Part shown: positions 1 to 64,000 of the stretch, piece after piece | How positions within the stretch are numbered: the first letter of the stretch is position 1 | Layout: each line of letters begins with the position of its first letter | Source of the DNA: Piscicola geometra | Taxonomy: Eukaryota; Annelida; Clitellata; Hirudinida; Piscicolidae | Direction of reading: 5' to 3' | Assembly: GCA_943735955.1 (NCBI GenBank) | Contig: OX030955.1 | Span: forward strand, 12,551,383-12,615,382 | DNA length: 64,000 bases | The notes under the pieces: model-generated | What the model saw: only the letters and a program-made list of their open reading frames with translations | Told to the model about the DNA's origin: nothing | The model's database searches: none | Position numbers and translations under genes: made by a program

Positions 1-3000
1 ACTACTGCATCGACAACAGTGCCGACCACTGCATCGACAACAGTGCCGACTAGTGCATCAACAGCAGTGATGACTACTGCATCGACAACAGTGCCGACTA
101 CTGCATCAACAACAGTGCCGACTACTGCATCAACAACAGTGCCGACAACTGCATCAACAACAGTGCCGACTACTGCATCGACAACAGTGCCGACAACTGC
201 ATCAACAACAGTGCCGACTACTGCATCGACAACAGTGCCGACTACTGCATCGACAACAGTGCCGACTATTGCATCAACTACAGTGCCGACTCCTGCATCG
301 ACAACAGTGCTGACTACTGCATCAACAACAGTGCCGACTACTGCATCGACAACAGTGCCGATCACTGCATCGACAGAAGTGCCGACTAGTGCATCAACAG
401 CAGTGACGACTACTGCATCGACAACAGTGCCGACTACTGCATCAACAACAGTGCTGACTACTGCATCAACAACAGTGCCGACTACTGCATCGACAACAGT
501 GCCGACCACTGCATTAACAACAGTGCCGACTACTGCATCGACAACAGTGCCGACTACTGTATCAACAACAGTGCCGACTACTGCATCGACAACAGTGCCG
601 ACCACTGCATTAACAACAGTGCCGACTACTGCATCGACAACAGTGCCGACTACTGCATCGACAACAGTGCCGACTACTGCATCGACAACAGTGCCGACTA
701 TTGCATCAACTACAGGGCCGACTCCTGCATCGACAACAGTGCTGACTACTGCATCAACAACAGTGCCGACTACTGCATCGACAACAGTGCTGACTACTGC
801 ATCAACAACAGTGCCGACTACTGCATCGACAACAGTGCCGATCACTGCATCGACAGAAGTGCCGACTAGTGCATCAACAGCAGTGACGACTACTGCATCG
901 ACAACAGTGCCGACTACTGCATCAACAACAGTGCCGACTACTGCATCAACAACAGTGCCGACTACTGCATCGACAACAGTGCCGACCACTGCATTAACAA
1001 CAGTGCCGACTACTGCATCGACAACAGTGCCGACTACTGCATCGACAACAGTGCCGACTACTGCATCGACAACAGTGCCGACTATTGCATCAACTACAGG
1101 GCCGACTCCTGCATCGACAACAGTGCTGACTACTGCATCAACAACAGTGCCGACTACTGCATCGACAACAGTGCCGACTATTGCATCAACTACAGAGCCG
1201 ACTCCTGCATCGACAACAGTGCTGACTACTGCATCAACAACAGTGCCGACTACTGCATCGACAACAGTGCCGACCACTGCATCGACAACAGTGCCGACTA
1301 TTGCATCAACAACAGTGCCGACAACTGCATCAACAACAGTGCCGACTACTGCATCGACAACAGTGCCGACCACTGCATCGACAACAGTGCCGACTACTGC
1401 ATCAACAACAGTGCCGACAACTGCATCAACAACAGTGCCGACTACTGCATCGACAACAGTGCCGACCACTGCATTAACAACATTGCCGACTACTGCATCG
1501 ACAACAGTGCCGACTACTGCATCAACAACAGTGCCGACTACTGCATCGACAACAGTGCCGACCACTGCATTAACAACAGTGCCGACTACTGCATCGACAA
1601 CAGTGCCGACTACTGCATCGACAACAGTGCCGACTACTGCATCGACAACAGTGCCGACTATTGCATCAACTACAGGGCCGACTCCTGCATCGACAACAGT
1701 GCTGACTACTGCATCAACAACAGTGCCGACTACTGCATCGACAACAGTGCCGACCACTGCATCGACAACAGTGCCGACTAGTGCATCAACAGCAGTGATG
1801 ACTACTGCATCGACAACAGTGCCGACTACTGCATCAACAACAGTGCCGACTAGTGCATCAACAACAGTGCCGATAACTGCATCGACAACAGTGCCGACTT
1901 CTGCATCGACAACAGTGCCGACTATTGCATCAACAACAGTGCCGACAACTGCTTCAACAACAGTGCCGACTACTGCATCGACAACAGTGCCGACCAGTGC
2001 ATCGACAACAGTGCCGACTACTGCATCAACAACAGTGCCGACTACTGCATCGACAACAGTGCCGACTATTGCATCAACTACAGTTCCGACTACTGCATCG
2101 ACAACAGTGCCGACTACTGCATCGACAACAGTGCCGACTACTGCATCGACAACAGTGCCGACTATTGCATCAACTACAGGGCCGACTCCTGCATCGACAA
2201 CAGTGCTGACTACTGCATCAACAACAGTGCCGACTACTGCATCGACAACAGTGCTGACTACTGCATCAACAACAGTGCCGACTACTGCATCGACAACAGT
2301 GCCGATCACTGCATCGACAGAAGTGCCGACTAGTGCATCAACAGCAGTGACGACTACTGCATCGACAACAGTGCCGACTACTGCATCAACAACAGTGCCG
2401 ACTACTGCATCAACAACAGTGCCGACTACTGCATCGACAACAGTGCCGACCACTGCATTAACAACAGTGCCGACTACTGCATCGACAACAGTGCCGACTA
2501 CTGCATCGACAACAGTGCCGACTACTGCATCGACAACAGTGCCGACTATTGCATCAACTACAGGGCCGACTCCTGCATCGACAACAGTGCTGACTACTGC
2601 ATCAACAACAGTGCCGACTACTGCATCGACAACAGTGCCGACTATTGCATCAACTACAGAGCCGACTCCTGCATCGACAACAGTGCTGACTACTGCATCA
2701 ACAACAGTGCCGACTACTGCATCGACAACAGTGCCGACCACTGCATCGACAACAGTGCCGACTATTGCATCAACAACAGTGCCGACAACTGCATCAACAA
2801 CAGTGCCGACTACTGCATCGACAACAGTGCCGACCACTGCATCGACAACAGTGCCGACTACTGCATCAACAACAGTGCCGACAACTGCATCAACAACAGT
2901 GCCGACTACTGCATCGACAACAGTGCCGACCACTGCATTAACAACATTGCCGACTACTGCATCGACAACAGTGCCGACTACTGCATCAACAACAGTGCCG

Positions 3001-6000
3001 ACTACTGCATCGACAACAGTGCCGACCACTGCATTAACAACAGTGCCGACTACTGCATCGACAACAGTGCCGACTACTGCATCGACAACAGTGCCGACTA
3101 CTGCATCGACAACAGTGCCGACTATTGCATCAACTACAGGGCCGACTCCTGCATCGACAACAGTGCTGACTACTGCATCAACAACAGTGCCGACTACTGC
3201 ATCGACAACAGTGCCGACCACTGCATCGACAACAGTGCCGACTAGTGCATCAACAGCAGTGATGACTACTGCATCGACAACAGTGCCGACTACTGCATCA
3301 ACAACAGTGCCGACTAGTGCATCAACAACAGTGCCGATAACTGCATCGACAACAGTGCCGACTTCTGCATCGACAACAGTGCCGACTATTGCATCAACAA
3401 CAGTGCCGACAACTGCTTCAACAACAGTGCCGACTACTGCATCGACAACAGTGCCGACCAGTGCATCGACAACAGTGCCGACTACTGCATCAACAACAGT
3501 GCCGACTACTGCATCGACAACAGTGCCGACTATTGCATCAACTACAGTTCCGACTACTGCATCAACAACAGTGCCGACTACTGCATCGACAACAGTGCCG
3601 ACTATTGCATCAACAACAGAGCCGACAACTGCTTCAACAACAGTGCCGACTACTGCATCGACAACAGTGCCGACCACTGCATCGACAACAGTGCCGACCA
3701 CTGCATCGACAACAGTGCCGACAACTGCTTCAACAACAGTGCCGACTACTGCATCGACAACAGTGCCGACCACTGCATCGACAACAGTGCCGACTACTGC
3801 ATCAACAACAGTGCCGACTACTGCATCAACAACAGTGCCGACTACTGCATCGACAACAGTGCCGACCACTGCATCGACAACAGTGCCGACCACTGCATCG
3901 ACAACAGTGCCGACAACTGCTTCAACAACAGTGCCGACTACTGCATCGACAACAGTGCCGACCACTGCATCGACAACAGTGCCGACTACTGCATCAACAA
4001 CAGTGCCGACTACTGCATCGACAACAGTGCCGACTACTGCATTAACAACAGTGCCGATAACTGCATCAACAACAGTGCCGACTACTGCATCGACAACAGT
4101 GCCGACTACTGCATCAACAACAGTGTCGACTATTGCATCAACTACAGGGCCGACTCCTGCATCGACAACAGTGCTGACTACTGCATCAACAACAGTGCCG
4201 ACTACTGCATCGACAACAGTGCCGACCACTGCATCGACAACAGTGCCGACTAGTGCATCAACAGCAGTGATGACTACTGCATCGACAACAGTGCCGACTA
4301 CTGCATCAACAACAGTGCCGACTAGTGCATCAACAACAGTGCCGATAACTGCATCGACAACAGTGCCGACTTCTGCATCGACAACAGTGCCGACTATTGC
4401 ATCAACAACAGTGCCGACAACTGCTTCAACAACAGTGCCGACTACTGCATCGACAACAGTGCCGACCAGTGCATCGACAACAGTGCCGACTACTGCATCA
4501 ACAACAGTGCCGACTACTGCATCGACAACAGTGCCGACTATTGCATCAACTACAGTTCCGACTACTGCATCAACAACAGTGCCGACTACTGCATCGACAA
4601 CAGTGCCGACTATTGCATCAACAACAGAGCCGACAACTGCTTCAACAACAGTGCCGACTACTGCATCGACAACAGTGCCGACCACTGCATCGACAACAGT
4701 GCCGACCACTGCATCGACAACAGTGCCGACAACTGCTTCAACAACAGTGCCGACTACTGCATCGACAACAGTGCCGACCACTGCATCGACAACAGTGCCG
4801 ACTACTGCATCAACAACAGTGCCGACTACTGCATCAACAACAGTGCCGACTACTGCATCGACAACAGTGCCGACCACTGCATCGACAACAGTGCCGACCA
4901 CTGCATCGACAACAGTGCCGACAACTGCTTCAACAACAGTGCCGACTACTGCATCGACAACAGTGCCGACCACTGCATCGACAACAGTGCCGACTACTGC
5001 ATCAACAACAGTGCCGACTACTGCATCGACAACAGTGCCGACTACTGCATTAACAACAGTGCCGATAACTGCATCAACAACAGTGCCGACTACTGCATCG
5101 ACAACAGTGCCGACTACTGCATCAACAACAGTGTCGACTATTGCATCAACAACAGTGCCGAGTACTGCATCAACAACAGTGCCGACAACTGCTTCAACAA
5201 CAGTGCCGACTATTGCATCAACAACAGTGCCGACAACTGCTTCAACAACAGTGCCGACTACTGCATCGACAACAGTGCCGACTATTGCATCAACTACAGG
5301 GCCGACTCCTGCATCGACAACAGTGCTGACTACTGCATCAACAACAGTGCCGACTACTGCATCGACAACAGTGCCGACTATTGCATCAACTACAGGGCCG
5401 ACTCCTGCATCGACAACAGTGCTGACTACTGCATCAACAACAGTGCCGACTACTGCATCGACAACAGTGCCGACCACTGCATCGACAACAGTGCCGACTA
5501 TTGCATCAACAACAGTGCCGACAACTGCATCAACAACAGTGCCGACTACTGCATCGACAACAGTGCCGACCACTGCATCGACAACAGTGCCGACTACTGC
5601 ATTAACAACAGTGCCGACAACTGCATCAACAACAGTGCCGACTACTGCATCGACAACAGTGCCGACCACTGCATTAACAACAGTGCCGACTACTGCATCG
5701 ACAACAGTGACGACTACTGCATCAACAACAGTGCCGACTACTGCATCGACAACAGTGCCGACCACTGCATTAACAACAGTGCCGACTACTGCATCGACAA
5801 CAGTGCCGACTACTGCATCGACAACAGTGCCGACTACTGCATCGACAACAGTGCCGACTATTGCATCAACTACAGGGCCGACTCCTGCATCGACAACAGT
5901 GCTGACTACTGCATCAACAACAGTGCCGACTACTGCATCGACAACAGTGCCGACCACTGCATCGACAACAGTGCCGACTAGTGCATCAACAGCAGTGATG

Positions 6001-9000
6001 ACTACTGCATCGACAACAGTGCCGACTACTGCATCAACAACAGTGCCGACTAGTGCATCAACAACAGTGCCGATAACTGCATCGACAACAGTGCCGACTT
6101 CTGCATCGACAACAGTGCCGACTATTGCATCAACAACAGTGCCGACAACTGCTTCAACAACAGTGCCGACTACTGCATCGACAACAGTGCCGACCAGTGC
6201 ATCGACAACAGTGCCGACTACTGCATCAACAACAGTGCCGACTACTGCATCGACAACAGTGCCGACTATTGCATCAACTACAGTGCCGACTACTGCATCA
6301 ACAACAGTGCCGACTACTGCATCGACAACAGTGCCGACTATTGCATCAACAACAGAGCCGACAACTGCTTCAACAACAGTGCCGACTACTGCATCGACAA
6401 CAGTGCCGACCACTGCATCGACAACAGTGCCGACCACTGCATCGACAACAGTGCCGACAACTGCTTCAACAACAGTGCCGACTACTGCATCGACAACAGT
6501 GCCGACCACTGCATCGACAACAGTGCCGACTACTGCATCAACAACAGTGCCGACTACTGCATCAACAACAGTGCCGACTACTGCATCGACAACAGTGCCG
6601 ACCACTGCATCGACAACAGTGCCGACCACTGCATCGACAACAGTGCCGACAACTGCTTCAACAACAGTGCCGACTACTGCATCGACAACAGTGCCGACCA
6701 CTGCATCGACAACAGTGCCGACTACTGCATCAACAACAGTGCCGACTACTGCATCGACAACAGTGCCGACTACTGCATTGACAACAGTGCCGATTACTGC
6801 ATCAACAACAGTGCCGACTACTGCATCGACAACAGTGCCGACTACTGCATCAACAACAGTGTCGACTATTGCATCAACAACAGTGCCGAGTACTGCATCA
6901 ACAACAGTGCCGACAACTGCTTCAACAACAGTGCCGACTATTGCATCAACAACAGTGCCGACAACTGCTTCAACAACAGTGCCGACTACTGCATCGACAA
7001 CAGTGCCGACTATTGCATCAACTACAGGGCCGACTCCTGCATCGACAACAGTGCTGACTACTGCATCAACAACAGTGCCGACTACTGCATCGACAACAGT
7101 GCCGACTATTGCATCAACTACAGGGCCGACTCCTGCATCGACAACAGTGCTGACTACTGCATCAACAACAGTGCCGACTACTGCATCGACAACAGTGCCG
7201 ACCACTGCATCGACAACAGTGCCGACTATTGCATCAACAACAGTGCCGACAACTGCTTCAACAACAGTGCCGACTACTGCATCGACAACAGTGCCGACCA
7301 CTGCATCGACAACAGTGCCGACTACTGCATCAACAACAGTGCCGACAACTGCATCAACAACAGTGCCGACTACTGCATCGACAACAGTGCCGACCACTGC
7401 ATTAACAACAGTGCCGACTACTGCATCCACAACAGTGCCGACTACTGCATCAACAACAGTGCCGACTACTGCATCGACAACAGTGCCGACTACTGCATCG
7501 ACAACAGTGCCGACTACTGCATCGACAACAGTGCCGACTATTGCATCAACTACAGGGCCGACTCCTGCATCGACAACAGTGCTGACTACTGCATCAACAA
7601 CAGTGCCGACTACTGCATCGACAACAGTGCCGACCACTGCATCGACAACATTGCCGACTAGTGCATCAACAGCAGTGATGACTACTGCATCGACAACAGT
7701 GCCGACAACTGCATCAACAACAGTGCCGACTACTGCATCGACAACAGTGCCGACTATTGCATCAACTACAGGGCCGACTCCTGCATCGACAACAGTGCTG
7801 ACTACTGCATCAACTACAGTGCCGACTACTGCATCGACAACAGTGCCGACCACTGCATCGACAACAGTGCCGACTAGTGCATCAACAGCAGTGATGACTA
7901 CTGCATCGACAACAGTGCCGACTACTGCATCAACAACAGTGCCGACTACTGCATCAACAACAGTGCCGACAACTGCATCAACAACAGTGCCGACTACTGC
8001 ATCGACAACTGTGCCGACAACTGCATCAACAACAGTGCCGACTACTGCATCGACAACAGTGCCGACTACTGCATCGACAACAGTGCCGACTATTGCATCA
8101 ACTACAGTGCCGACTCCTGCATCGACAACAGTGCTGACTACTGCATCAACAACAGTGCCGACTACTGCATCGACAACAGTGCCGATCACTGCATCGACAG
8201 AAGTGCCGACTAGTGCATCAACAGCAGTGACGACTACTGCATCGACAACAGTGCCGACTACTGCATCAACAACAGTGCCGACTACTGCATCAACAACAGT
8301 GCCGACTACTGCATCGACAACAGTGCCGACCACTGCATTAACAACAGTGCCGACTACTGCATCGACAACAGTGCCGACTACTGCATCGACAACAGTGCCG
8401 ACTACTGCATCGACAACAGTGCCGACTATTGCATCAACTACAGGGCCGACTCCTGCATCGACAACAGTGCTGACTACTGCATCAACAACAGTGCCGACTA
8501 CTGCATCGACAACAGTGCCGACTATTGCATCAACTACAGAGCCGACTCCTGCATCGACAACAGTGCTGACTACTGCATCAACAACAGTGCCGACTACTGC
8601 ATCGACAACAGTGCCGACCACTGCATCGACAACAGTGCCGACTATTGCATCAACAACAGTGCCGACAACTGCATCAACAACAGTGCCGACTACTGCATCG
8701 ACAACAGTGCCGACCACTGCATCGACAACAGTGCCGACTACTGCATCAACAACAGTGCCGACAACTGCATCAACAACAGTGCCGACTACTGCATCGACAA
8801 CAGTGCCGACCACTGCATTAACAACAGTGCCGACTACTGCATCGACAACAGTGCCGACTACTGCATCAACAACAGTGCCGACTACTGCATCGACAACAGT
8901 GCCGACCACTGCATTAACAACAGTGCCGACTACTGCATCGACAACAGTGCCGACTACTGCATCGACAACAGTGCCGACTACTGCATCGACAACAGTGCCG

Positions 9001-12000
9001 ACTATTGCATCAACTACAGGGCCGACTCCTGCATCGACAACAGTGCTGACTACTGCATCAACAACAGTGCCGACTACTGCATCGACAACAGTGCCGACCA
9101 CTGCATCGACAACAGTGCCGACTAGTGCATCAACAGCAGTGATGACTACTGCATCGACAACAGTGCCGACTACTGCATCAACTACAGTGCCGACTACTGC
9201 ATCAACAACAGTGCCGACTACTGCATCGACAACAGTGCCGACTATTGCATCAACAACAGAGCCGACAACTGCTTCAACAACAGTGCCGACTACTGCATCG
9301 ACAACAGTGCCGACCACTGCATCGACAACAGTGCCGACCACTGCATCGACAACAGTGCCGACAACTGCTTCAACAACAGTGCCGACTACTGCATCGACAA
9401 CAGTGCCGACCACTGCATCGACAACAGTGCCGACTACTGCATCAACAACAGTGCCGACTACTGCATCAACAACAGTGCCGACTACTGCATCGACAACAGT
9501 GCCGACCACTGCATCGACAACAGTGCCGACCACTGCATCGACAACAGTGCCGACAACTGCTTCAACAACAGTGCCGACTACTGCATCGACAACAGTGCCG
9601 ACCACTGCATCGACAACAGTGCCGACTACTGCATCAACAACAGTGCCGACTACTGCATCGACAACAGTGCCGACTACTGCATTGACAACAGTGCCGATTA
9701 CTGCATCAACAACAGTGCCGACTACTGCATCGACAACAGTGCCGACTACTGCATCAACAACAGTGTCGACTATTGCATCAACAACAGTGCCGAGTACTGC
9801 ATCAACAACAGTGCCGACAACTGCTTCAACAACAGTGCCGACTATTGCATCAACAACAGTGCCGACAACTGCTTCAACAACAGTGCCGACTACTGCATCG
9901 ACAACAGTGCCGACTATTGCATCAACTACAGGGCCGACTCCTGCATCGACAACAGTGCTGACTACTGCATCAACAACAGTGCCGACTACTGCATCGACAA
10001 CAGTGCCGACTATTGCATCAACTACAGGGCCGACTCCTGCATCGACAACAGTGCTGACTACTGCATCAACAACAGTGCCGACTACTGCATCGACAACAGT
10101 GCCGACCACTGCATCGACAACAGTGCCGACTATTGCATCAACAACAGTGCCGACAACTGCTTCAACAACAGTGCCGACTACTGCATCGACAACAGTGCCG
10201 ACCACTGCATCGACAACAGTGCCGACTACTGCATCAACAACAGTGCCGACAACTGCATCAACAACAGTGCCGACTACTGCATCGACAACAGTGCCGACCA
10301 CTGCATTAACAACAGTGCCGACTACTGCATCCACAACAGTGCCGACTACTGCATCAACAACAGTGCCGACTACTGCATCGACAACAGTGCCGACCACTGC
10401 ATTAACAACAGTGCCGACTACTGCATCGACAACAGTGCCGACTACTGCATCGACAACAGTGCCGACTACTGCATCGACAACAGTGCCGACTATTGCATCA
10501 ACTACAGGGCCGACTCCTGCATCGACAACAGTGCTGACTACTGCATCAACAACAGTGCCGACTACTGCATCGACAACAGTGCCGACCACTGCATCGACAA
10601 CATTGCCGACTAGTGCATCAACAGCAGTGATGACTACTGCATCGACAACAGTGCTGACTACTGCATCAACAACAGTGCCGACTACTGCATCAACAACAGT
10701 GCCGACAACTGCATCAACAACAGTGCCGACTACTGCATCGACAACAGTGCCGACAACTGCATCAACAACAGTGCCGACTACTGCATCGACAACAGTGCCG
10801 ACTACTGCATCGACAACAGTGCCGACTATTGCATCAACTACAGTGCCGACTCCTGCATCGACAACAGTGCTGACTACTGCATTAACAACAGTGCCGACTA
10901 CTGCATCGACAACAGTGCCGATCACTGCATCGACAGAAGTGCCGACTAGTGCATCAACAGCAGTGACGACTACTGCATCGACAACAGTGCCGACTACTGC
11001 ATCAACAACAGTGCCGACTACTGCATCAACAACAGTGCCGACAACTGCATCGACAACAGTGCCGACTTCTGCATCGACAACAGTGCCGACTATTGCATCA
11101 ACAACAGTGCCGACAACTGCTTCAACAACAGTGCCGACTACTGCATCAACAACAGTGCCGACTACTGCATCGACAACAGTGCCGACCACTGCATTAACAA
11201 CAGTGCCGACTACTGCATCGACAACAGTGCCGACTACTGCATCGACAACAGTGCCGACATCTGCATCGACAACAGTGCCGACTATTGCATCAACTACAGG
11301 GCCGACTCCTGCATCGACAACAGTGCTGACTACTGCATCAACAACAGTGCCGACTACTGCATCGACAACAGTGCCGACTATTGCATCAACTACAGGGCCG
11401 ACTCCTGCATCGACAACAGTGCTGACTACTGCATCAACAACAGTGCCGACTACTGCATCGACAACAGTGCCGACCACTGCATCGACAACAGTGCCGACTA
11501 TTGCATCAACAACAGTGCCGACAACTGCTTCAACAACAGTGCCGACTACTGCATCGACAACAGTGCCGACCACTGCATCGACAACAGTGCCGACTACTGC
11601 ATCAACAACAGTGCCGACAACTGCATCAACAACAGTGCCGACTACTGCATCGACAACAGTGCCGACCACTGCATTAACAACAGTGCCGACTACTGCATCG
11701 ACAACAGTGCCGACTACTGCATCAACAACAGTGCTGACTACTGCATCGACAACAGTGCCGACCACTGCATTAACAACAGTGCCGACTACTGCATCGACAA
11801 CAGTGCCGACTACTGCATCGACAACAGTGCCGACTACTGCATCGACAACAGTGCCGACTATTGCATCAACTACAGGGCCGACTTCTGCATCGACAACAGT
11901 GCTGACTACTGCATCAACAACAGTGCCAACTACTGCATCGACAACAGTGCCGACCACTGCATCGACAACAGTGCCGACTAGTGCATCAACAGCAGTGATG

Positions 12001-48000: not shown

Positions 48001-51000
48001 ACTACTGCATCGACAACAGTGCCGACTATTGCATCAACTACAGGGCCGACTCCTGCATCGACAACAGTGCTGACTACTGCATCAACAACAGTTCCGACTA
48101 CTGCATCGACAACAGTGCCGACAACTGCATCAACAGCAGTGACGACTACTGCATCGACAACAGTGCCGACTACTGCATCAACAACAGTGCCGACTACTGC
48201 ATCGACAACAGTGCCGACCACTGCAATAACAACAGTGCCGACTACTGCATCGACAACAGTGCCGACTACTGCATCAACAACAGTGCCGACTACTGCATTG
48301 ACAACAGTGCCGACTACTGCATCGACAACAGTGCCGACTATTGCATCAACTACAGGGCCGACTCCTGCATCGACAACAGTGCTGACTACTGCATCAACAA
48401 CAGTGCCGACTACTGCATCGACAACAGTGCCGACCACTGCATCGACAACAGTGCCGACTAGTGCATCAACAGCAGTGATGACTACTGCATCGACAACAGT
48501 GCCGACTACTGCATCAACAACAGTGCCGACTACTGCATCAACAACAGTGCCGATAACTGCATCGACAACAGTGCCGACTTCTGCATCGACAACAGTGCCG
48601 ACTATTGCATCAACAACAGTGCCGACAACTGCTTCAACAACAGTGCCGACTACTGCATCGACAACAGTGCCGACCACTGCATCGACAACAGTGCCGACTA
48701 CTGCATCAACAACAGTGCCGACTACTGCATCGACAACAGTGCCGACTATTGCATCAACTACAGTGCCGACTACTGCATCAACAACAGTGCCGACTACTGC
48801 ATCGACAACAGTGCCGACTATTGCATCAACAACAGAGCCGACAACTGCTTCAACAACAGTGCCGACAACTGCTTCAACAACAGTGCCGACTACTGCATCG
48901 ACAACAGTGCCGACCACTGCATCGACAACAGTGCCAACTATTGCATCAACAACAGTGCCGACAACTGCTTCAACAACAGTGCCGACTACTGCATCGACAA
49001 CAGTGCCGACCACTGCATCGACAACAGTGCCGACTAATGCATCAACTACAGTGCCGACTACTGCTTCAACAACAGTGCCGACAACTGCTTCAACAACAGT
49101 GCCGACTACTGCATCGACAACGCCGACCACTGCATCAACTACAGTGCCGACTACTGCATCATCAACAGTGCCGACTACTGCATCGACAACAGTGCCGACT
49201 ATTGCATCAACAACAGTGCCGACAACTGCTTCAACAACAGTGCCGACTACTGCATCGACAACAGTGCCGACCACTGCATCGACAACAGTGCCGACTATTG
49301 CATCAACTACAGTGCCGACTACTGCTTCAACAACAGTGCCGACAACTGCTTCAACTACAGTGCCGACTACTGCATCAACAACAGTGCCGACTACTGCATC
49401 GACAACAGTGCCGACTATTGCATCAACAACAGTGCCGACAACTGCTTCAACAACAGTGCCGACTACTGCATCGACAACAGTGCCGACCGCTGCATCGACA
49501 ACAGTGCCGACTATTGCATCAACTACAGTGCCGACTACTGCTTCAACAACAGTGCCGACAACTGCTTCAACAACAGTGCCGACTACTGCATCGACAACAA
49601 TGCCGACCACTGCATCGACAACAGTGCCGACTACTGCATCAACAACAGTGCCGACTACTGCATTGACAACAGTGCCGACTACTGCATTGACAACAGTGCC
49701 GACTACTGCATCAACAACAGTGCCGACTACTGCATCGACAACAGTGCCGACTACTGCATCAACAACAGTGTCGACTATTGCATCAACAACAGTGCCGAGT
49801 ACTGCATCAACAACAGTGCCGACAACTGCTTCAACAACAGTGCCGACTACTGCATCGACAACAGTGCCGATCACTGCATCGACAACAGTGCCGACCACTG
49901 CATCGACAACAGTGCCGACTACTGCATCAACAGCAGTGACGACTACTGCATCGACAACAGTACCGACTACTGCATCAACAACAGTGCCGACAACTGCTTC
50001 TACAACAGTGCCGACTACTGCATCGACAACAGTGCCGACCACTGCATCGACAACAGTGCCGACTACTGCATCAACAACAGTGCAGACTACTGCATCGACA
50101 ACAGTGCCGACTACTGCATCAACAACAGTGCCGACTACTGCATCGACAACAGTGCCGACTACTGCATCGACAACAGTGCCGACTACTGCATTGACAACAG
50201 TGCCGACAACTGCATCAACAACAGTCCCGACTACTGCATCGACAACAGTGCCGACTACTGCATCGACAACAGTGTCGACTATTGCATCAACAACAGTGCC
50301 GAGTACTGCATCAACAACAGTGCCGACAACTGCTTCAACAACAGTGCCGACCACTGCATCGACAACAGTGCCGACTATTGCATCAACAACAGTGCCGACA
50401 ACTGCTTCAACAACAGTGCCGACTACTGCATCGACAACAGTGCCGACCACTGCATCGACAACAGTGCCGACTATTGCATCAACTACAGTGCCGACTACTG
50501 CTTCAACAACAGTGCCGACAACTGCTTCAACTACAGTGCCGACTACTGCATCAACAACAGTGCCGACTACTGCATCGACAACAGTGCCGACTATTGCATC
50601 AACAACAGTGCCGACAACTGCTTCAACAACAGTGCCGACTACTGCATCGACAACAGTGCCGACCGCTGCATCGACAACAGTGCCGACTATTGCATCAACT
50701 ACAGTGCCGACTACTGCTTCAACAACAGTGCCGACAACTGCTTCAACAACAGTGCCGACTACTGCATCGACAACAGTGCCGACCACTGCATCGACAACAG
50801 TGCCGACTACTGCATCGACAACAATGCCGACCACTGCATCGACAACAGTGCCGACTACTGCATCAACAACAGTGCCGACTACTGCATTGACAACAGTGCC
50901 GACTACTGCATTGACAACAGTGCCGACTACTGCATCAACAACAGTGCCGACTACTGCATCGACAACAGTGCCGACTACTGCATCAACAACAGTGTCGACT

Positions 51001-54000: not shown

Positions 54001-57000
54001 ACTGCATCGACAACAGTGCCGACTACTGCATCGACAACAGTGCCGACCACTGCATCGACAACAGTGCCGACTACTGCATCAACAACAGTGCCGACTATTG
54101 CATCGACAACAGTGCCGACTACTGCATCGACAACAGTGCCGACTACTGCATCGACAACAGTGTCGACTATTGCATCAACAACAGTGCCGAGTACTGCATC
54201 AACAACAGTGCCGACAACTGCTTCAACAACAGTGCCGACTACTGCATCGACAACAGTGCCGACCACTGCATCGACAACAGTGCCGACTATTGCATCAACT
54301 ACAGTGCCGACTACTGCTTCAACAACAGTGCCGACAACTGCTTCAACAACAGTGCCGACTACTGCATCGACAACAATGCCGACCACTGCATCGACAACAG
54401 TGCCGACTACTGCATCAACAACAGTGCCGACTACTGCATTGACAACAGTGCCGACTACTGCATTGACAACAGTGCCGACTACTGCATCAACAACAGTGCC
54501 GACTACTGCATCGACAACAGTGCCGACTACTGCATCAACAACAGTGTCGACTATTGCATCAACAACAGTGCCGAGTACTGCATCAACAACAGTGCCGACA
54601 ACTGCTTCAACAACAGTGCCGACTACTGCATCGACAACAGTGCCGATCACTGCATCGACAACAGTGCCGACCACTGCATCGACAACAGTGCCGACTACTG
54701 CATCAACAGCAGTGACGACTACTGCATCGACAACAGTACCGACTACTGCATCAACAACAGTGCCGACAACTGCTTCTACAACAGTGCCGACTACTGCATC
54801 GACAACAGTGCCGACCACTGCATCGACAACAGTGCCGACTACTGCATCAACAACAGTGCAGACTACTGCATCGACAACAGTGCCGACTACTGCATCAACA
54901 ACAGTGCCGACTACTGCATCGACAACAGTGCCGACTACTGCATCGACAACAGTGCCGACTACTGCATTGACAACAGTGCCGACAACTGCATCAACAACAG
55001 TCCCGACTACTGCATCGACAACAGTGCCGACTACTGCATCGACAACAGTGTCGACTATTGCATCAACAACAGTGCCGAGTACTGCATCAACAACAGTGCC
55101 GACAACTGCTTCAACAACAGTGCCGACCACTGCATCGACAACAGTGCCGACTATTGCATCAACAACAGTGCCGACAACTGCTTCAACAACAGTGCCGACT
55201 ACTGCATCGACAACAGTGCCGACCACTGCATCGACAACAGTGCCGACTATTGCATCAACTACAGTGCCGACTACTGCTTCAACAACAGTGCCGACAACTG
55301 CTTCAACTACAGTGCCGACTACTGCATCAACAACAGTGCCGACTACTGCATCGACAACAGTGCCGACTATTGCATCAACAACAGTGCCGACAACTGCTTC
55401 AACAACAGTGCCGACTACTGCATCGACAACAGTGCTGACCGCTGCATCGACAACAGTGCCGACTATTGCATCAACTACAGTGCCGACTACTGCTTCAACA
55501 ACAGTGCCGACAACTGCTTCAACAACAGTGCCGACTACTGCATCGACAACAGTGCCGACCACTGCATCGACAACAGTGCCGACTACTGCATCGACAACAA
55601 TGCCGACCACTGCATCGACAACAGTGCCGACTACTGCATCAACAACATTGCCGACTACTGCATTGACAACAGTGCCGACTACTGCATTGACAACAGTGCC
55701 GACTACTGCATCAACAACAGTGCCGACTACTGCATCGACAACAGTGCCGACTACTGCATCAACAACAGTGTCGACTATTGCATCAACAACAGTGCCGAGT
55801 ACTGCATCAACAACAGTGCCGACAACTGCTTCAACAACAGTGCCGACGACTGCATCGACAACAGTGCCGATCACTGCATCGACAACAGTGCCGACCACTG
55901 CATCGACAACAGTGCCGACTACTGCATCAACAGCAGTGACGACTACTGCATCGACAACAGTGCCGACTACTGCATCAACAACAGTGCCGACAACTGCTTC
56001 TACAACAGTGCCGACTACTGCATCGACAACAGTGCCGACCACTGCATCGACAACAGTGCCGACTACTGCATCAACAACAGTGCAGACTACTGCATCGACA
56101 ACAGTGCCGACTACTGCATCAACAACAGTGCCGACTACTGCATCGACAACAGTGCCGACTACTGCATCGACAACAGTGCCGACTACTGCATTGACAACAG
56201 TGCCGACAACTGCATCAACAACATTCCCGACTACTGCATCAACAACAGTGCCGACAACTGCTTCAACAACAGTGCCGACTACTGCATCGACAACAGTGCC
56301 GACCACTGCATCGACAACAGTGCCGACCACTGCATCGACAACAGTGCCGACTACTGCATCAACAGCAGTGACGACTACTGCATCGACAACAGTGCCGACT
56401 ACTGCATCAACAACAGTGCCGACTACTGCATCGACAACAGTGCCGACCACTGCATTAACAACAGTGCCGACTACTGCATCGACAACAGTGCCGACTACTG
56501 CATCAACAACAGTGCCGACTACTGCATCGACAACAGTGCCGACTACTGCATCGACAACAGTGCCGACTATTGCATCAACTACAGGGCCGACTCCTGCATC
56601 GACAACAGTGCTGACTACTGCATCAACAACAGTGCCGACTACTGCATCGACAACAGTGCCGACTACTGCATCGACAACAGTGCCGACTAGTGCATCAACA
56701 GCAGTGATGACTACTGCATCGACAACAGTGCCGACCACTGCATCGACAACAGTGCCGACTATTGCATCAACTACAGTGCCGACTACTGCTTCAACAACAG
56801 TGCCGACAACTGCTTCAACTACAGTGCCGACTACTGCATCAACAACAGTGCCGACTACTGCATCGACAACAGTGCCGACTATTGCATCAACAACAGTGCC
56901 GACAACTGCTTCAACAACAGTGCCGACTACTGCATCGACAACAGTGCCGACCGCTGCATCGACAACAGTGCCGACTATTGCATCAACTACAGTGCCGACT

Positions 57001-60000
57001 ACTGCTTCAACAACAGTGCCGACAACTGCTTCAACAACAGTGCCGACTACTGCATCGACAACAGTGCCGACCACTGCATCGACAACAGTGCCGACTACTG
57101 CATCGACAACAATGCCGACCACTGCATCGACAACAGTGCCGACTACTGCATCAACAACAGTGCCGACTACTGCATTGACAACAGTGCCGACTACTGCATT
57201 GACAACAGTGCCGACTACTGCATCAACAACAGTGCCGACTACTGCATCGACAACAGTGCCGACTACTGCATCAACAACAGTGTCGACTATTGCATCAACA
57301 ACAGTGCCGAGTACTGCATCAACAACAGTGCCGACAACTGCTTCAACAACAGTGCCGACTACTGCATCGACAACAGTGCCGATCACTGCATCGACAACAG
57401 TGCCGACCACTGCATCGACAACAGTGCCGACTACTGCATCAACAGCAGTGACGACTACTGCATCGACAACAGTGCCGACTACTGCATCAACAACAGTGCC
57501 GAGTACTGCATCAACAACAGTGCCGACAACTGCTTCAACAACAGTGCCGACTACTGCATCGACAACAGTGCCGACTACTGCATCGACAACAGTGTCGACT
57601 ATTGCATCAACAACAGTGCCGAGTACTGCATCAACAACAGTGCCGACAACTGCTTCAACAACAGTGCCGACTACTGCATCGACAACAGTGCCGACCACTG
57701 CATCGACAACAGTGCCGACCACTGCATCGACAACAGTGCCGACTACTGCATCAACAGCAGTGACGACTACTGCATCGACAACAGTGCCGACTACTGCATC
57801 AACAACAGTGCCGACTACTGCATCGACAACAGTGCCGACCACTGCATTAACAACAGTGCCGACTACTGCATCGACAACAGTGCCGACTACAGCATCAACA
57901 ACAGTGCCGACTACTGCATCGACAACAGTGCCGACTACTGCATCGACAACAGTGCCGACTATTGCATCAACTACAGGGCCGACTCCTGCATCGACAACAG
58001 TGCTGACTACTGCATCAACAACAGTGCCGACTACTGCATCGACAACAGTGCCGACTACTGCATCGACAACAGTGCCGACTAGTGCATCAACAGCAGTGAT
58101 GACTACTGCATCGACAACAGTGCCGACTACTGCATCAACAACAGTGCCGACTACTGCATCAACAACAGTGCCGATAACTGCATCGACAACAGCGCTGACT
58201 TCTGCATCGACAACAGTGCCGACTATTGCATCAACAACAGTGCCGACAACTGCATCGACAACAGTGCCGACCACTGCATCGACAACAGTGCCGACTACTG
58301 CATCAACAACAGTGCCGACTACTGCATCGACAACAGTGCCGACTATTGCATCAACTACAGTGCCGACTACTGCATCAACAACAGTGCCGACTACTGCATC
58401 GACAACAGTGCCGACTATTGCATCAACAACAGAGCCGACAACTGCTTCAACAACAGTGCCGACTACTGCATCGACAACTGTGCCGAACACGGCATCGACA
58501 ACAGTGCCGACTACTGCATCGACAACAGTGCCGACCACTGCATCGACAACAGTGCCGACTACTGCATCAACAACAGTGCCGATTATTGCATCGACAACAG
58601 TGCCAACTACTGCATCGACAACAGTGCCGACAACTGCATCAACAACAGTGCCGACTACTGCATCGACAACAGTGCCGACAACTGCATCGACAACAGTGTC
58701 GACTATTGCATCAACAACAGTGCCGACAACTGCTTCAACAACAGTGCCGACTACTGCATCGACAACAGTGCCGAACACTGCATCGACAACAGTGCCGACT
58801 ACTGCATCGACAACAGTGCCGACCACTGCATCGACAACAGTGCCGACTACTGCATCAACAACAGTGCCGACTATTGCATCGACAACAGTGCCGACTACTG
58901 CATCGACAACAGTGCCGACTACTGCATCGACAACAGTGTCGACTATTGCATCAACAACAGTGCCGAGTACTGCATCAACAACAGTGCCGACAACTGCTTC
59001 AACAACAGTGCCGACTACTGCATCGACAACAGTGCCGACCACTGCATCGACAACAGTGCCGACCACTGCATCGACAACAGTGCCGACTACTGCATCAACA
59101 GCAGTGACGACTATTGCATCGACAACAGTGCCGACTACTGCATCAACAACAGTGCCGACTACTGCATCGACAACAGTGCCGACCACTGCATTAACAACAG
59201 TGCCGACTACTGCATCGACAACAGTGCCGACTACTGCATCAACAACAGTGCCAACTACTGCATCGACAACAGTGCCGACTACTGCATCGACAACAGTGCC
59301 GACTATTGCATCAACTACAGGGCCGACTCCTGCATCGACAACAGTGCTGGCTACTGCATCAACAACAGTGCCGACTACTGCATCGACAACAGTGCCGACT
59401 ACTGCATCGACAACAGTGCCGACTAGTGCATCAACAGCAGTGCCGACTACTGCATTGACAACAGTGCCGACAACTGCATCAACAACAGTCCCGACTACTG
59501 CATCAACAACAGTGCCGACAACTGCTTCTACAACAGTGCCGACTACTGCATCGACAACAGTGCCGACCACTGCATCGACAACAGTGCCGACTACTGCATC
59601 ATCAACAGTGCAGACTACTGCATCGACAACAGTGCCGACTACTGCATCAACAACAGTGCCGACTACTGCATCGACAACAGTGCCGACTACTGCATCGACA
59701 ACAGTGCCGACTACTGCATTGACAACAGTGCCGACAACTGCATCAACAACAGTCCCGACTACTGCATCGACAACAGTGCCGACTACTGCATCGACAACAG
59801 TGTCGACTATTGCATCAACAACAGTGCCGAGTACTGCATCAACAACAGTGCCGACAACTGCTTCAACAACAGTGCCGACTACTGCATCGACAACAGTGCC
59901 GACCACTGCATCGACAACAGTGCCGACCACTGCATCGACAACAGTGCCGACTACTGCATCAACAGCAGTGACGACTACTGCATCGACAACAGTGCCGACT

Positions 60001-63000
60001 ACTGCATCAACAACAGTGCCGACTACTGCATCGACAACAGTGCCGACCACTGCATTAACAACAGTGCCGACTACTGCATCGACAACAGTGCCGACTACTG
60101 CATCAACAACAGTGCCGACTACTGCATCGACAACAGTGCCGACTACTGCATCGACAACAGTGCCGACTATTGCATCAACTACAGGGCCGACTCCTGCATC
60201 GACAACAGTGCTGACTACTGCATCAACAACAGTGCCGACTACTGCATCGACAACAGTGCCGACTACTGCATCGACAACAGTGCCGACTAGTGCATCAACA
60301 GCAGTGATGACTACTGCATCGACAACAGTGCCGACTACTGCATCAACAACAGTGCCGACTATTGCATCGACAACAGTGCCGACTACTGCATCGACAACAG
60401 TGCCGACTACTGCATCGACAACAGTGTCGACTATTGCATCAACAACAGTGCCGAGTACTGCATCAACAACAGTGCCGACAACTGCTTCAACAACAGTGCC
60501 GACTACTGCATCGACAACAGTGCCGACCACTGCATCGACAACAGTGCCGACCACTGCATCGACAACAGTGCCGACTACTGCATCAACAGCAGTGACGACT
60601 ACTGCATCGACAACAGTGCCGACTACTGCATCAACAACAGTGCCGACTACTGCATCGACAACAGTGCCGACCACTGCATTAACAACAGTGCCGACTACTG
60701 CATCGACAACAGTGCCGACTACTGCATCAACAACAGTGCCAACTACTGCATCGACAACAGTGCCGACTACTGCATCGACAACAGTGCCGACTATTGCATC
60801 AACTACAGGGCCGACTCCTGCATCGACAACAGTGCTGGCTACTGCATCAACAACAGTGCCGACTACTGCATCGACAACAGTGCCGACTACTGCATCGACA
60901 ACAGTGCCGACTAGTGCATCAACAGCAGTGCCGACTACTGCATTGACAACAGTGCCGAAAACTGCATCAACAACAGTCCCGACTACTGCATCAACAACAG
61001 TGCCGACAACTGCTTCTACAACAGTGCCGACTACTGCATCGACAACAGTGCCGACCACTGCATCGACAACAGTGCCGACTACTGCATCATCAACAGTGCA
61101 GACTACTGCATCGACAACAGTGCCGACTACTGCATCAACAACAGTGCCGACTACTGCATCGACAACAGTGCCGACTACTGCATCGACAACAGTGCCGACT
61201 ACTGCATTGACAACAGTGCCGACAACTGCATCAACAACAGTCCCGACTACTGCATCGACAACAGTGCCGACTACTGCATCGACAACAGTGTCGACTATTG
61301 CATCAACAACAGTGCCGAGTACTGCATCAACAACAGTGCCGACAACTGCTTCAACAACAGTGCCGACTACTGCATCGACAACAGTGCCGACCACTGCATC
61401 GACAACAGTGCCGACCACTGCATCGACAACAGTGCCGACTACTGCATCAACAGCAGTGACGACTACTGCATCGACAACAGTGCCGACTACTGCATCAACA
61501 ACAGTGCCGACTACTGCATCGACAACAGTGCCGACCACTGCATTAACAACAGTGCCGACTACTGCATCGACAACAGTGCCGACTACTGCATCAACAACAG
61601 TGCCGACTACTGCATCGACAACAGTGCCGACTACTGCATCGACAACAGTGCCGACTATTGCATCAACTACAGGGCCGACTCCTGCATCGACAACAGTGCT
61701 GACTACTGCATCAACAACAGTGCCGACTACTGCATCGACAACAGTGCCGACTACTGCATCGACAACAGTGCCGACTAGTGCATCAACAGCAGTGATGACT
61801 ACTGCATCGACAACAGTGCCGACTACTGCATCAACAACAGTGCCGACTACTGCATCAACAACAGTGCCGATAACTGCATCGACAACAGTGCTGACTTCTG
61901 CATCGACAACAGTGCCGACTATTGCATCAACAACAGTGCCGACAACTGCATCGACAACAGTGCCGACCACTGCATCGACAACAGTGCCGACTACTGCATC
62001 AACAACAGTGCCGACTATTGCATCGACAACAGTGCCGACTATTGCATCAACTACAGTGCCGACTACTGCATCAACAACAGTGCCGACTACTGCATCGACA
62101 ACAGTGCCGACTATTGCATCAACAACAGAGCCGACAACTGCTTCAACAACAGTGCCGACTACTGCATCGACAACTGTGCCGAACACTGCATCGACAACAG
62201 TGCCGACTACTGCATCGACAACAGTGCCGACCACTGCATCGACAACAGTGCCGACTACTGCATCAACAACAGTGCCGACTATTGCATCGACAACAGTGCC
62301 GACTACTGCATCGACAACAGTGCCGACTACTGCATCGACAACAGTGCCGACTACTGCATCGACAACAGTGCCGACAACTGCATCAACAACAGTGCCGACT
62401 ACTGCATCGACAACAGTGCCGACTACTGCATCGACAACAGTGTCGACTATTGCATCAACAACAGTGCCGACAACTGCTTCAACAACAGTGCCGACTACTG
62501 CATCGACAACAGTGCCGAACACTGCATCGACAACAGTGCCGACTACTGCATCGACAACAGTGCCGACCACTGCATCGACAACAGTGCCGACTACTGCATC
62601 AACAACAGTGCCGACTATTGCATCGACAACAGTGCCGACTACTGCATCGACAACAGTGCCGACTACTGCATCGACAACAGTGTCGACTATTGCATCAACA
62701 ACAGTGCCGAGTACTGCATCAACAACAGTGCCGACAACTGCTTCAACAACAGTGCCGACTACTGCATCGACAACAGTGCCGACCACTGCATCGACAACAG
62801 TGCCGACCACTGCATCGACAACAGTGCCGACTACTGCATCAACAGCAGTGACGACTACTGCATCGACAACAGTGCCGACTACTGCATCAACAACAGTGCC
62901 GACTACTGCATCGACAACAGTGCCGACCACTGCATTAACAACAGTGCCGACTACTGCATCGACAACAGTGCCGACTACTGCATCAACAACAGTGCCGACT

Positions 63001-64000
63001 ACTGCATCGACAACAGTGCCGACTACTGCATCGACAACAGTGCCGACTATTGCATCAACTACAGGGCCGACTCCTGCATCGACAACAGTGCTGACTACTG
63101 CATCGACAACAGTGCCGACTACTGCATCAACAACAGTGCCGACTACTGCATCGACAACAGTGCCGACCACTGCATTAACAACAGTGCCGACTACTGCATC
63201 GACAACAGTGCCGACTACTGCATCAACAACAGTGCCGACTACTGCATCGACAACAGTGCCGACCACTGCATCGACAACAGTGCCGACTACTGCATCAACA
63301 ACAGTGCCGACTATTGCATCGACAACAGTGCCGACTATTGCATCAACTACAGTGCCGACTACTGCATCAACAACAGTGCCGACTACTGCATCGACAACAG
63401 TGCCGACTATTGCATCAACAACAGAGCCGACAACTGCTTCAACAACAGTGCCGACTACTGCATCGACAACTGTGCCGAACACTGCATCGACAACAGTGCC
63501 GACTACTGCATCGACAACAGTGCCGACCACTGCATCGACAACAGTGCCGACTACTGCATCAACAACAGTGCCGACTATTGCATCGACAACAGTGCCGACT
63601 ACTGCATCGACAACAGTGCCGACCACTGCATCGACAACAGTGCCGACTACTGCATCAACAACAGTGCCGACTATTGCATCGACAACAGTGCCGACTACTG
63701 CATCGACAACAGTGCCGACTACTGCATCGACAACAGTGCCGACTACTGCATCGACAACAGTGCCGAACACTGCATCGACAACAGTGCCGACTACTGCATC
63801 GACAACAGTGCCGACCACTGCATCGACAACAGTGCCGACTACTGCATCGACAACAGTGCCGACCACTGCATCGACAACAGTGCCGACTACTGCATCGACA
63901 ACAGTGCCGACTACTGCATCAACAACAGTGCCGACTACTGCATCGACAACAGTGCCGACTACTGCATCGACAACAGTGCCGACTATAACATCAACTACAG
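1..64000 (+). CDS. Internal part of a giant TTASTTVP-repeat, mucin-like Ser/Thr/Pro-rich protein (both ends missing)
   Basis: Frame +1 (first codon at base 1) is open through all 21,333 complete codons; I found no in-frame TAA, TAG or TGA. It encodes about 2,666 copies of the octapeptide TTASTTVP, so about 62% of residues are Ser or Thr and one in eight is Pro. That composition is typical of PTS domains in mucins and other secreted or wall glycoproteins, where Thr and Ser carry O-glycans; a lubricating, adhesive or coat role is inference. I found no Cys, Trp, Tyr, His, Arg or Asp, and only nine Lys, so there is no folded domain, disulfide, membrane segment or signal peptide here. Common variants are T2 to I, S or P; T1 to I; S4 to L; V7 to E or G; and P8 to L, S, T or M. 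Many other differences are silent. The only length change is an in-frame codon loss. Start, stop, promoter and splice sites must lie outside. Alternatives are a satellite open by chance, or a product from the other strand. I do not recognise the gene. Confidence 0.72.
625..3552. repeat. Tandem duplication of a 1,464-bp block (61 units): 625-2088 and 2089-3552
   Basis: Unit-by-unit comparison at an offset of 1,464 bp matches from 625, where the preceding units differ (ACC...TTA against ATT), up to 2088/3552. Rare shared markers confirm it: the ATC...GAA unit at 841 and 2305, the ATT...GAG unit at 1177 and 2641, and the V7-to-L unit (TTA...TTG) at 1465 and 2929. The breakpoints fall on whole units, so the coding frame is kept. 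Confidence 0.9.
3121..5136. repeat. Tandem duplication of a 1,008-bp block (42 units): 3121-4128 and 4129-5136
   Basis: At an offset of 1,008 bp the units match from the ATT...GGG unit at 3121/4129, through the Met-bearing unit at 3241/4249, to the TCG-ending (P8 to S) unit at 4105/5113. They diverge immediately outside. The left copy overlaps the end of the 1,464-bp duplication, so this event came after or was nested with it. Confidence 0.9.
11137..13968. repeat. Tandem duplication of a 1,416-bp block (59 units): 11137-12552 and 12553-13968
   Basis: Units match at an offset of 1,416 bp. Shared rare variants include ACA-TCT at the start of the units at 11257 and 12673, CCA in place of CCG near 11932 and 13348, and Met-bearing units at 11977 and 13393. 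Both edges fall on unit boundaries: the unit before (11113 against 12529) and the unit after (12553 against 13969) differ. The same 59-unit spacing recurs at 18437/19853. Confidence 0.88.
14665..17256. repeat. Tandem duplication of a 1,296-bp block (54 units): 14665-15960 and 15961-17256
   Basis: Units match at an offset of 1,296 bp, including the rare ACT-AAT unit (T2 to N) near 14905/16201, the GTT (A3 to V) unit just before it, and the Lys-bearing unit at 14761/16057. The right copy has two private C-to-A changes at 16049 and 16055, giving T6 to K and P8 to Q in one unit. The near-identity suggests a recent event. Confidence 0.9.
20929..22752. repeat. Tandem duplication of an 888-bp block (37 units): 20929-21816 and 21817-22704, homology to 22752
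   Basis: At an offset of 888 bp the units match, including the rare ATT-GCA-TCA-ACT-ACT unit at 21241 and 22129 (codon 6 ACT instead of ACA, silent). Match starts at 20929/21817 and continues two units past the second copy, so the exact junction is ambiguous by about 48 bp. Confidence 0.85.
22129..26640. repeat. Duplication with 2,304-bp (96-unit) period: about 22129-24336 and 24433-26640
   Basis: Shared rare units define it: Met-bearing unit followed by a TCA-TCG unit (A3 to S) at 22777/25081, and the T6-to-I (ATA) unit at 24289/26593. The last units of the interval between the copies differ, so roughly four units at the junction have been replaced or converted. Confidence 0.8.
27241..29952. 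repeat. Tandem duplication of a 1,368-bp block (57 units): 27241-28608 and 28609 to about 29952
   Basis: Met-bearing units preceded by ATT rather than AGT, and followed by a TCA-TCG unit, occur at 27889/29257 and 28537/29905, each pair 1,368 bp apart. The opening ACC unit matches at 27241/28609 and the units before it differ. Partial further copies of the same cassette lie at 30529. Confidence 0.82.
34177..38160. repeat. Tandem duplication of a 1,992-bp block (83 units): 34177-36168 and 36169-38160
   Basis: Met-bearing units at 34393/36385 and 35377/37369 and the rare Lys-plus-CCA unit at 36025/38017 all sit 1,992 bp apart. Near 36169 a pair of units (ACC...TTA and the next) present at the equivalent place after 38161 is missing, a 48-bp in-frame difference. 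Private changes include TTT (S4 to F) at 34858 and AAA (T5 to K) at 36301. Confidence 0.83.
39649..41448. repeat. Three tandem copies of a 600-bp block (25 units), plus a truncated fourth upstream
   Basis: Copies are 39649-40248, 40249-40848 and 40849-41448, each opening with an ACC unit followed by a Met-bearing unit (39673, 40273, 40873). A related copy of 456 bp (19 units) lies at 39193-39648 and lacks six units. Private substitutions are few: CAG (P8 to Q) at 39838, CCA at 40078, GAA-CCG and GCT-TTA around 40555-40572, and GAA (A3 to E) near 41431. Confidence 0.9.
49105..49125 (+). other. Unique 21-bp unit: the only length variant, an in-frame loss of one codon
   Basis: Here the unit reads ACT-ACT-GCA-TCG then ACA-ACG-CCG, so three bases spanning codons 6 and 7 are missing. 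The peptide becomes TTASTTP, with Val lost. All later units are shifted by 3 bp relative to the first 49 kb, but the codon frame continues unbroken. I saw no other departure from 24-bp spacing by following the line-to-line phase of the array. The unit is not copied in any of the duplicated blocks and makes a natural unique landmark in the array. Confidence 0.96.
49438..59061. repeat. Tandem duplication of a 4,776-bp block (199 units): about 49438-54213 and 54214-58989
   Basis: This is the largest duplication seen. Units match at an offset of 4,776 bp over almost the whole length, including rare shared markers: GTA at codon 7 near 49962/54738, TTC (V7 to F) near 51447/56223, ACG at codon 1 near 51070/55846, and the AAC-ACG unit near 53709/58485. 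Met-bearing units pair at 51910/56686 and 53302/58078. Differences are few, for example GCT against ACT at 49489/54265 and CTG in only one copy near 55434. The homology runs to 59061. Confidence 0.93.
58846..61821. repeat. Tandem duplication of a 1,488-bp block (62 units): 58846-60333 and 60334-61821
   Basis: Shared markers are the CTG-GCT junction (P8 to L followed by T1 to A) near 59346/60834, the AGT...GCA unit ending in CCG rather than ATG at 59422/60910, the T5-to-S unit (TCA-TCA) near 59600/61088, and Met-bearing units at 60286/61774. The left edge overlaps the end of the 4,776-bp duplication. A private change, AAA (T1 to K) at 60958, marks the right copy. Confidence 0.88.
63982..64000 (+). 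other. Last, cut-off unit with a private double change (codons 2-3 ATA-ACA)
   Basis: The partial unit reads ACT-ATA-ACA then TCA-ACT-ACA, giving T-I-T-S-T-T. Compared with the common ATT-GCA-TCA-ACT form it has two adjacent substitutions (T to A and G to A) that I did not see elsewhere. The codon frame is still open at the window edge. It may be an ordinary private variant or the first sign of more diverged repeats beyond. Confidence 0.8.

Follow-up and report, generated by a model that had tools for sequence, protein, structure and literature searches.

An open frame spanning a mega-base repeat array in the leech Piscicola geometra: a predicted giant membrane-tethered mucin

The 64,000-nucleotide stretch of Piscicola geometra DNA analysed here (the window, contig positions 12551383-12615382) belongs to a reading frame that is open both before and after a single assembly gap, and that probably forms one giant exon encoding a predicted membrane-tethered mucin of ~391,800 amino acids. 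As judged from the DNA sequence, the plan would be that of a tethered mucin, with in-frame Thr/Ser/Pro tandem repeats followed by a predicted transmembrane helix and a short tail. The original prediction, that the window is an internal piece of one of the largest predicted proteins, has held up well, the whole open stretch being ~18 times as long as the window. The fuller claim is that a single exon of ~1.18 Mb yields one continuous mucin of at least 390,000 residues, ~38 MDa before sugars and ~0.1 mm long, which RNA polymerase and ribosomes would take most of a day to read; exon and protein would then be the largest of any organism. We regard that claim as evenly poised.

Results

Read from its first base, the window contains no stop in 21,333 codons, just as had been claimed; the other two frames of the plus strand contain 391 and 66. 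The array of TTASTTVP octapeptides described in the original prediction is also there: cut in register, the window yields 2,663 units of 24 bp, of which 1,721 encode exactly TTASTTVP, and there are 116 distinct DNA sequences among the units. The only register change between exact units is a 21-bp unit lacking the Val codon, which keeps the frame. The earlier estimate of ~2 MDa for the window compares with a computed 2.03 MDa before glycosylation, and Thr and Ser make up 59.6% of the residues. TRF returned three overlapping rows that amount to one array from end to end of the window; all periods are multiples of 24 bp, with 90-91% matches and 0% indels, and adjacent units differ by ~10%.

Searches of the genome (171,024,195 bases in 66 contigs) place the window within a Thr/Ser/Pro repeat array of ~1.17 Mb that consists of two blocks, one with a 24-bp (8-residue) and the other with a 66-bp (22-residue) unit (Table 1; contig coordinates minus 12551382 give window coordinates). 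COX1 is carried by a 15,135-bp contig; among the candidates scored, which were those with the most shared words, its 447-residue piece has 97% identity to Codonobdella sp., 91% to Notostomum cyclostomum, 90% to Pterobdella and 84-86% to the glossiphoniid leeches listed. The exact 24-bp motif has 14,902 matches in the genome, all in the forward direction and beginning at 12514687, and the places among the matches listed are all within this locus. The 66-bp unit, SMMTTESTSVPTAVSTTVPTTV, has 6,382 exact matches, again all forward, and its block begins near 13158.4k. When 20 probes were taken between 13250k and 13751k, the 17 lying up to 13686.2k fell inside the 66-bp block, all open in one phase, and the last three fell beyond it; further probes at 13687.2k and 13688.2k again fell within the array, and the sequence is unique from 13689180. 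The switch between the two units (13158100-13158450) is direct and in frame. In the window exact repeats are up to 2.2 kb long, and in one piece of the 66-bp block, with the N run removed, up to 2.6 kb.

Table 1. Features of the locus, in contig coordinates unless marked as window positions
Feature	Position	Strand	Basis or remark
Predicted exon 1, signal-peptide-like start MTLTRGILLLAGLLSLLSA	12512291-12512348	+	donor in phase with acceptor at 12513830
Lys/Glu-rich unique part	12513253-12514617	+	open in array frame
24-bp block	12514687 to ~13158100	+	exact motif search
Internal piece of 24-bp-unit (TTASTTVP) block, giant exon	window 1..64000	+	0 stops, frame +1
One unit in register, ACTACTGCATCGACAACAGTGCCG = TTASTTVP	window 1..24	+	first window bases
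21-bp unit TTASTTP, Val codon missing	window 49105..49125	+	units cut in register
66-bp block	13158385-13689179	+	exact motif search and probes
Assembly gap, 200 N, inside 66-bp block	13184383-13184582		
Stalk and transmembrane helix	13689180-13689438	+	same frame, hydropathy
Predicted exon 3, tail ARETLEAEE	13689566-13689594	+	splice prediction; stop 13689592-13689594

The array DNA that was fetched amounts to 270,072 bases, or 90,024 codons, and contains no stop. The rest of the array was judged from the length of open frame that the genome search gives around each match; this length was read as running from stop to stop, with N read through, and on that reading both of the numbers obtained fit exactly. 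A query from the N-terminal part gave an open frame of 223,780 amino acids, which is exactly how far 12513253 lies from 13184593, where the first out-of-phase stop beyond the gap is found; 12513253-13184382 (223,710 codons) is therefore free of stops. A C-terminal query gave 173,346 amino acids, which leads back through the gap to a phase-0 stop at 13169445, and therefore 13184583-13689485 (168,301 codons) is also stop-free. The frame lengths differ from the codon counts because the frames run through the N gap. Among the matches listed, of the 382 along the array, each gives one or the other of these two lengths. Beyond the window, where stops or frame breaks had been the thing to look for, the frame stays open as far as the array extends in either direction, giving 392,011 codons in all without a stop.

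The open phase changes once, the coordinate modulo 3 being 1 before the N gap and 0 after it. A frameshift within the array was considered and rejected as the cause, since the change is located at the 200-N gap. Nor are two adjacent genes needed, as it is at the gap that the phase switches, and each end region matches the genome at a single place. Across the gap, the join of the two halves is a presumed one.

Upstream of the repeats, the frame runs through an A-rich head of unique sequence, 1.4 kb long, which encodes a Lys/Glu-rich chain that by eye ends in a coiled-coil-like manner. In this region the array frame has no stop and the other two plus-strand frames have 42 and 48; none of 1,000 first-order and none of 1,000 second-order Markov sequences reached 460 codons. 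The head has one match in the genome and is without a hydrophobic start; it contains no Pfam domain, and no relative of the N-terminal part was found among 7,989 scored candidates. A candidate first exon with a signal-peptide-like start lies further upstream (Table 1). Its donor, CAT/GTATGT at 12512349, is in phase with an acceptor at 12513830 that has the most preceding pyrimidines in the region (10 of 16), and the predicted junction between exons 1 and 2 reads ...SLLSA-SKKIMGKSILMQ. A 26-base degenerate pattern for the signal-peptide start has a single match in the genome. With a donor threshold of 7/9 over 43,260 bp, this is the only candidate on the plus strand, compared with 19 on the minus strand, where 9 of the 10 listed are overlapping starts in one run of Met; relaxing the threshold to 6/9 gives 14 candidates on the plus strand and 23 on the minus. 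The signal-peptide exon, with its 7-of-9 donor, is put forward as a candidate. A further 192 codons upstream of the acceptor (12513253-12513829) are open in the array frame, and may be explained by an alternative first exon, by use of a different acceptor, or by the A-rich composition leaving a frame open by chance. A signal-peptide exon had been anticipated on this side, and what lies there is an in-frame unique region and, at 12512291-12512348, the candidate exon.

Beyond the repeats at the other end, the same frame reads TGSSTHMMTTAMTFVQSRSTKPVLKDLPTIVSQNVSTTSPKFLPTTESTTVLISEVKLTTPLLLWYVGFVFCLLLLLLLLFITRQY. The predicted transmembrane helix has a mean Kyte-Doolittle hydropathy of 2.93 over 19 residues, with basic residues after it. 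The codon that follows is split by a donor, ATG/GTGAGT, and an acceptor, CTCTAG/, lies 127 bp further on; AATAAA overlaps the stop codon of the exon 3 predicted from it. Unspliced, the frame would end at a stop at 13689486. At E 0.001 the genome contains a single match to the 86-residue C-terminal piece. A SEA domain was sought beside the membrane, and the stalk piece matched no Pfam family at E 0.01. The downstream C-terminal domain foreseen in the original prediction takes the form of a unique stalk, a transmembrane helix, a donor and a predicted tail, all in frame.

The resulting gene model has exon 1 at 12512291-12512348, exon 2 at 12513830-13689438 (1,175,609 bp with the gap) and exon 3 from 13689566, and its predicted coding bases outside the gap number 1,175,496, corresponding to the ~391,800 amino acids given above. 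The mass of the whole open stretch comes to ~38.2 MDa before sugars when composition is extrapolated from the window and one piece of the 66-bp block, and in the latter Thr and Ser account for 53.4% of residues. The chain would offer some 223,000 candidate Thr/Ser sites for O-glycans. Mucin chains measure ~0.25 nm per residue, from which the predicted chain would be ~0.1 mm long.

Two Pfam matches were set aside as low-complexity matches. One was to phage Gp5; the other was to Cornifin (SPRR; PF02389), at 175.1 bits on a piece of the window. Cornifins are cornified-envelope repeats rich in Cys, Pro and Gln, and the 90,024 array residues include no Cys. Lys and Arg together number 275 among these residues, so few that trypsin would barely digest the repeats.

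Openness alone is weak evidence for coding, because one antisense frame is almost open too. In the window this antisense frame is stop-free, a point absent from the original prediction; over 18 array pieces including the window (77,989 codons) it has 6 stops, and the sense frame none. It reads GTVVDAVV-type repeats, is open as a consequence of the codons used in the sense frame, and serves as an internal control.

Rare variants, taken as codon variants seen no more than twice in common contexts, were compared with an expectation whose spectrum came from the same variants. Across 90,024 codons there were 187 missense, 70 synonymous and no nonsense changes, where 171, 80 and 6.0 respectively were expected; the Poisson chance of seeing no nonsense change is ~0.003. 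Scaled to the whole array, and given even mutation and independent events, ~26 nonsense changes would be expected. Missense changes look nearly neutral, which would fit with the frame and the Thr/Ser/Pro character mattering above the exact sequence. A genome-wide search for the repeat's Ser codon changed to the pattern TRR, which catches only units with their flanking bases kept and in which the DNA search skips common words, returned 8 matches, all of them TGG (Trp) and none a stop. These 8 sites fall in three groups within the 66-bp block, at 13567896-13640965.

Length changes that depart from the repeat unit are, away from the gap, multiples of 3. The fetched pieces of the 24-bp block hold nine such events, with five distinct junctions between exact units; one fetched piece of the 66-bp block has an internal change of 42 bp, and the pieces fetched after the gap have unit phases of 33, 57, 15, 39, 9, 27 and 63 modulo 66. 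The single departure from multiples of 3 is a shift of 2 that spans the N gap. What selection appears to maintain is the frame and the Thr/Ser/Pro character, rather than the exact residues.

Discussion

Satellites typically form long homogeneous arrays, and where the unit happens to contain no stop codon an open frame comes at no cost, as the antisense frame with its few stops illustrates. It is nevertheless very improbable that the array is a non-coding satellite of this kind, lying between or inside genes. Unique sequence continues the frame at either end, and includes a predicted transmembrane helix and splice signals; none of the 392,011 codons of the open stretch is a stop; and the 14,902 motif matches all point forward, with those listed all placed at this locus. 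We rejected the satellite explanation on the lack of nonsense changes against the 6.0 expected, the length changes in multiples of 3 and a frame open as far as the unique ends. The gene could be a real mucin gene with a much shorter product, the array being mostly spliced out or the chain broken in translation or processing. We know of no protein that matches the predicted size, and this lack of precedent speaks for a shorter product, as does the time that synthesis would need, since transcription and translation would together take most of a day. The 192 further open codons upstream of the chosen acceptor point the same way in that they leave the splicing at the 5′ end unsettled. We still think a shorter product unlikely, as the frame is kept, without stops, across both blocks to both ends, and a mostly untranslated array would need neither.

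Misassembly is compatible with the explanation that we prefer in everything except size: a real mucin gene would be present, its array length distorted because repeats had been collapsed or falsely expanded, or misjoined at the gap. The 200-N gap within the 66-bp block favours this, as do the exact repeats of 2.2 and 2.6 kb and the contig N50 of 1.4 Mb that an excerpt of the published assembly report gives (PMC11134150). The same excerpt, however, cites 76-fold HiFi reads and a QV of 51.3 (PMC11134150), no N occurs in the pieces fetched from before the gap, and units adjacent in the window are ~10% divergent. A misstated array length is something that we doubt.

If the array is translated through, as we favour, the signal peptide of exon 1 would bring the chain into the ER, and the Thr/Ser sites of the repeats, roughly 223,000 in number, would be O-glycosylated. 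The molecule might then be anchored in the apical epithelial membrane as an extended, hydrated bristle of up to ~0.1 mm, or be shed, and the fish leech may use the product as a surface glycocalyx or as mucus. Unequal exchange of units would expand the array; neighbouring units are ~90% alike and exact repeats reach 2.2 and 2.6 kb, so that such exchange would explain its growth.

The vertebrate membrane-tethered mucins MUC4, MUC12, MUC16 and MUC17 share the predicted plan, namely a signal peptide (in the leech, a candidate one), one large exon with the Thr/Ser/Pro repeats, a single transmembrane helix and a short tail. There are differences: the stalk piece is without a SEA domain as judged by Pfam, unlike the SEA-domain mucins (MUC1, 12, 13, 16, 17 type), and the leech head is Lys/Glu-rich and without a Pfam match. 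The leech protein is predicted to be a tethered mucin by function and plan only, and its likeness to named mucin families is one of plan, not of sequence kinship. The repeat itself has 14 matches among possible relatives, and none of the five that carry an organism name is from a leech. In the snail Physella acuta, a mucin-2-like protein (P0122) also has Thr/Ser/Pro repeats and shows 57% identity over 41% of a 500-residue piece of the window; P0122 is only 526 residues long, and the likeness is compositional.

Titin has ~35,000 residues, PKZILLA-1 has 45,212 and giant bacterial surface proteins have ~85,800. All of these have folded domains, and titin is encoded by many exons. They resemble the predicted leech chain in extreme length and in being built of repeats or modules, whereas the leech chain would be ~4 to 11 times longer, of low complexity and encoded essentially by one exon. 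Coding satellites and VNTR exons likewise consist of short head-to-tail units that grow by unequal exchange; the leech array differs in being of mega-base size with its frame kept, and in having two different units fused in frame. Human MUC12 reaches 23,080 amino acids and has the largest human exon, according to an extract of the relevant paper (PMC13345508), and the predicted leech chain is ~17 times longer than that MUC12 allele. Searches of open-access papers in PMC turned up neither this gene nor a mucin comparable to it; the word 'mucin' is absent from the main text of a survey of huge proteins (PMC11573180), and a further paper, again in extract, names the PKZILLAs (PMC12300183). The predicted protein is likely to be far larger than any described so far.

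If the protein is made at full length, the upper limit of both protein and exon size would move several fold, to ~4 to 11 times that of the known record holders, and the predicted mucin would test the size limit of a single gene product. Questions would then follow about the export of an mRNA with more than one million coding bases, its protection from decay and its error-free reading, about the passage of a ~0.1 mm chain through the ER and Golgi, and about how an array of this size is spared frameshifts. Stretches of finished genomes that look like satellites can conceal giant coding exons, and may be passed over by gene finders dependent on a start or a unique anchor.

Neighbourhood of the locus

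Upstream of the gene, two open reading frames on the minus strand (12494579-12497016) belong to a rhodopsin-family GPCR, one matching Pfam 7tm_1 at 51.9 bits against a cut-off of 30.5 and the other falling below it at 20.7. Very long microsatellites are also found upstream, at 12479131-12480263, 12481569-12482542 and 12485145-12486500; one is a dinucleotide run coding for HTHT/CVCV, and two are runs of four-base repeats coding for PSIH. Downstream, 13692201-13692340 translates as SFFAIQLDESSDLINIAVHLRHIR, a stretch that we take to resemble hAT-type transposases.
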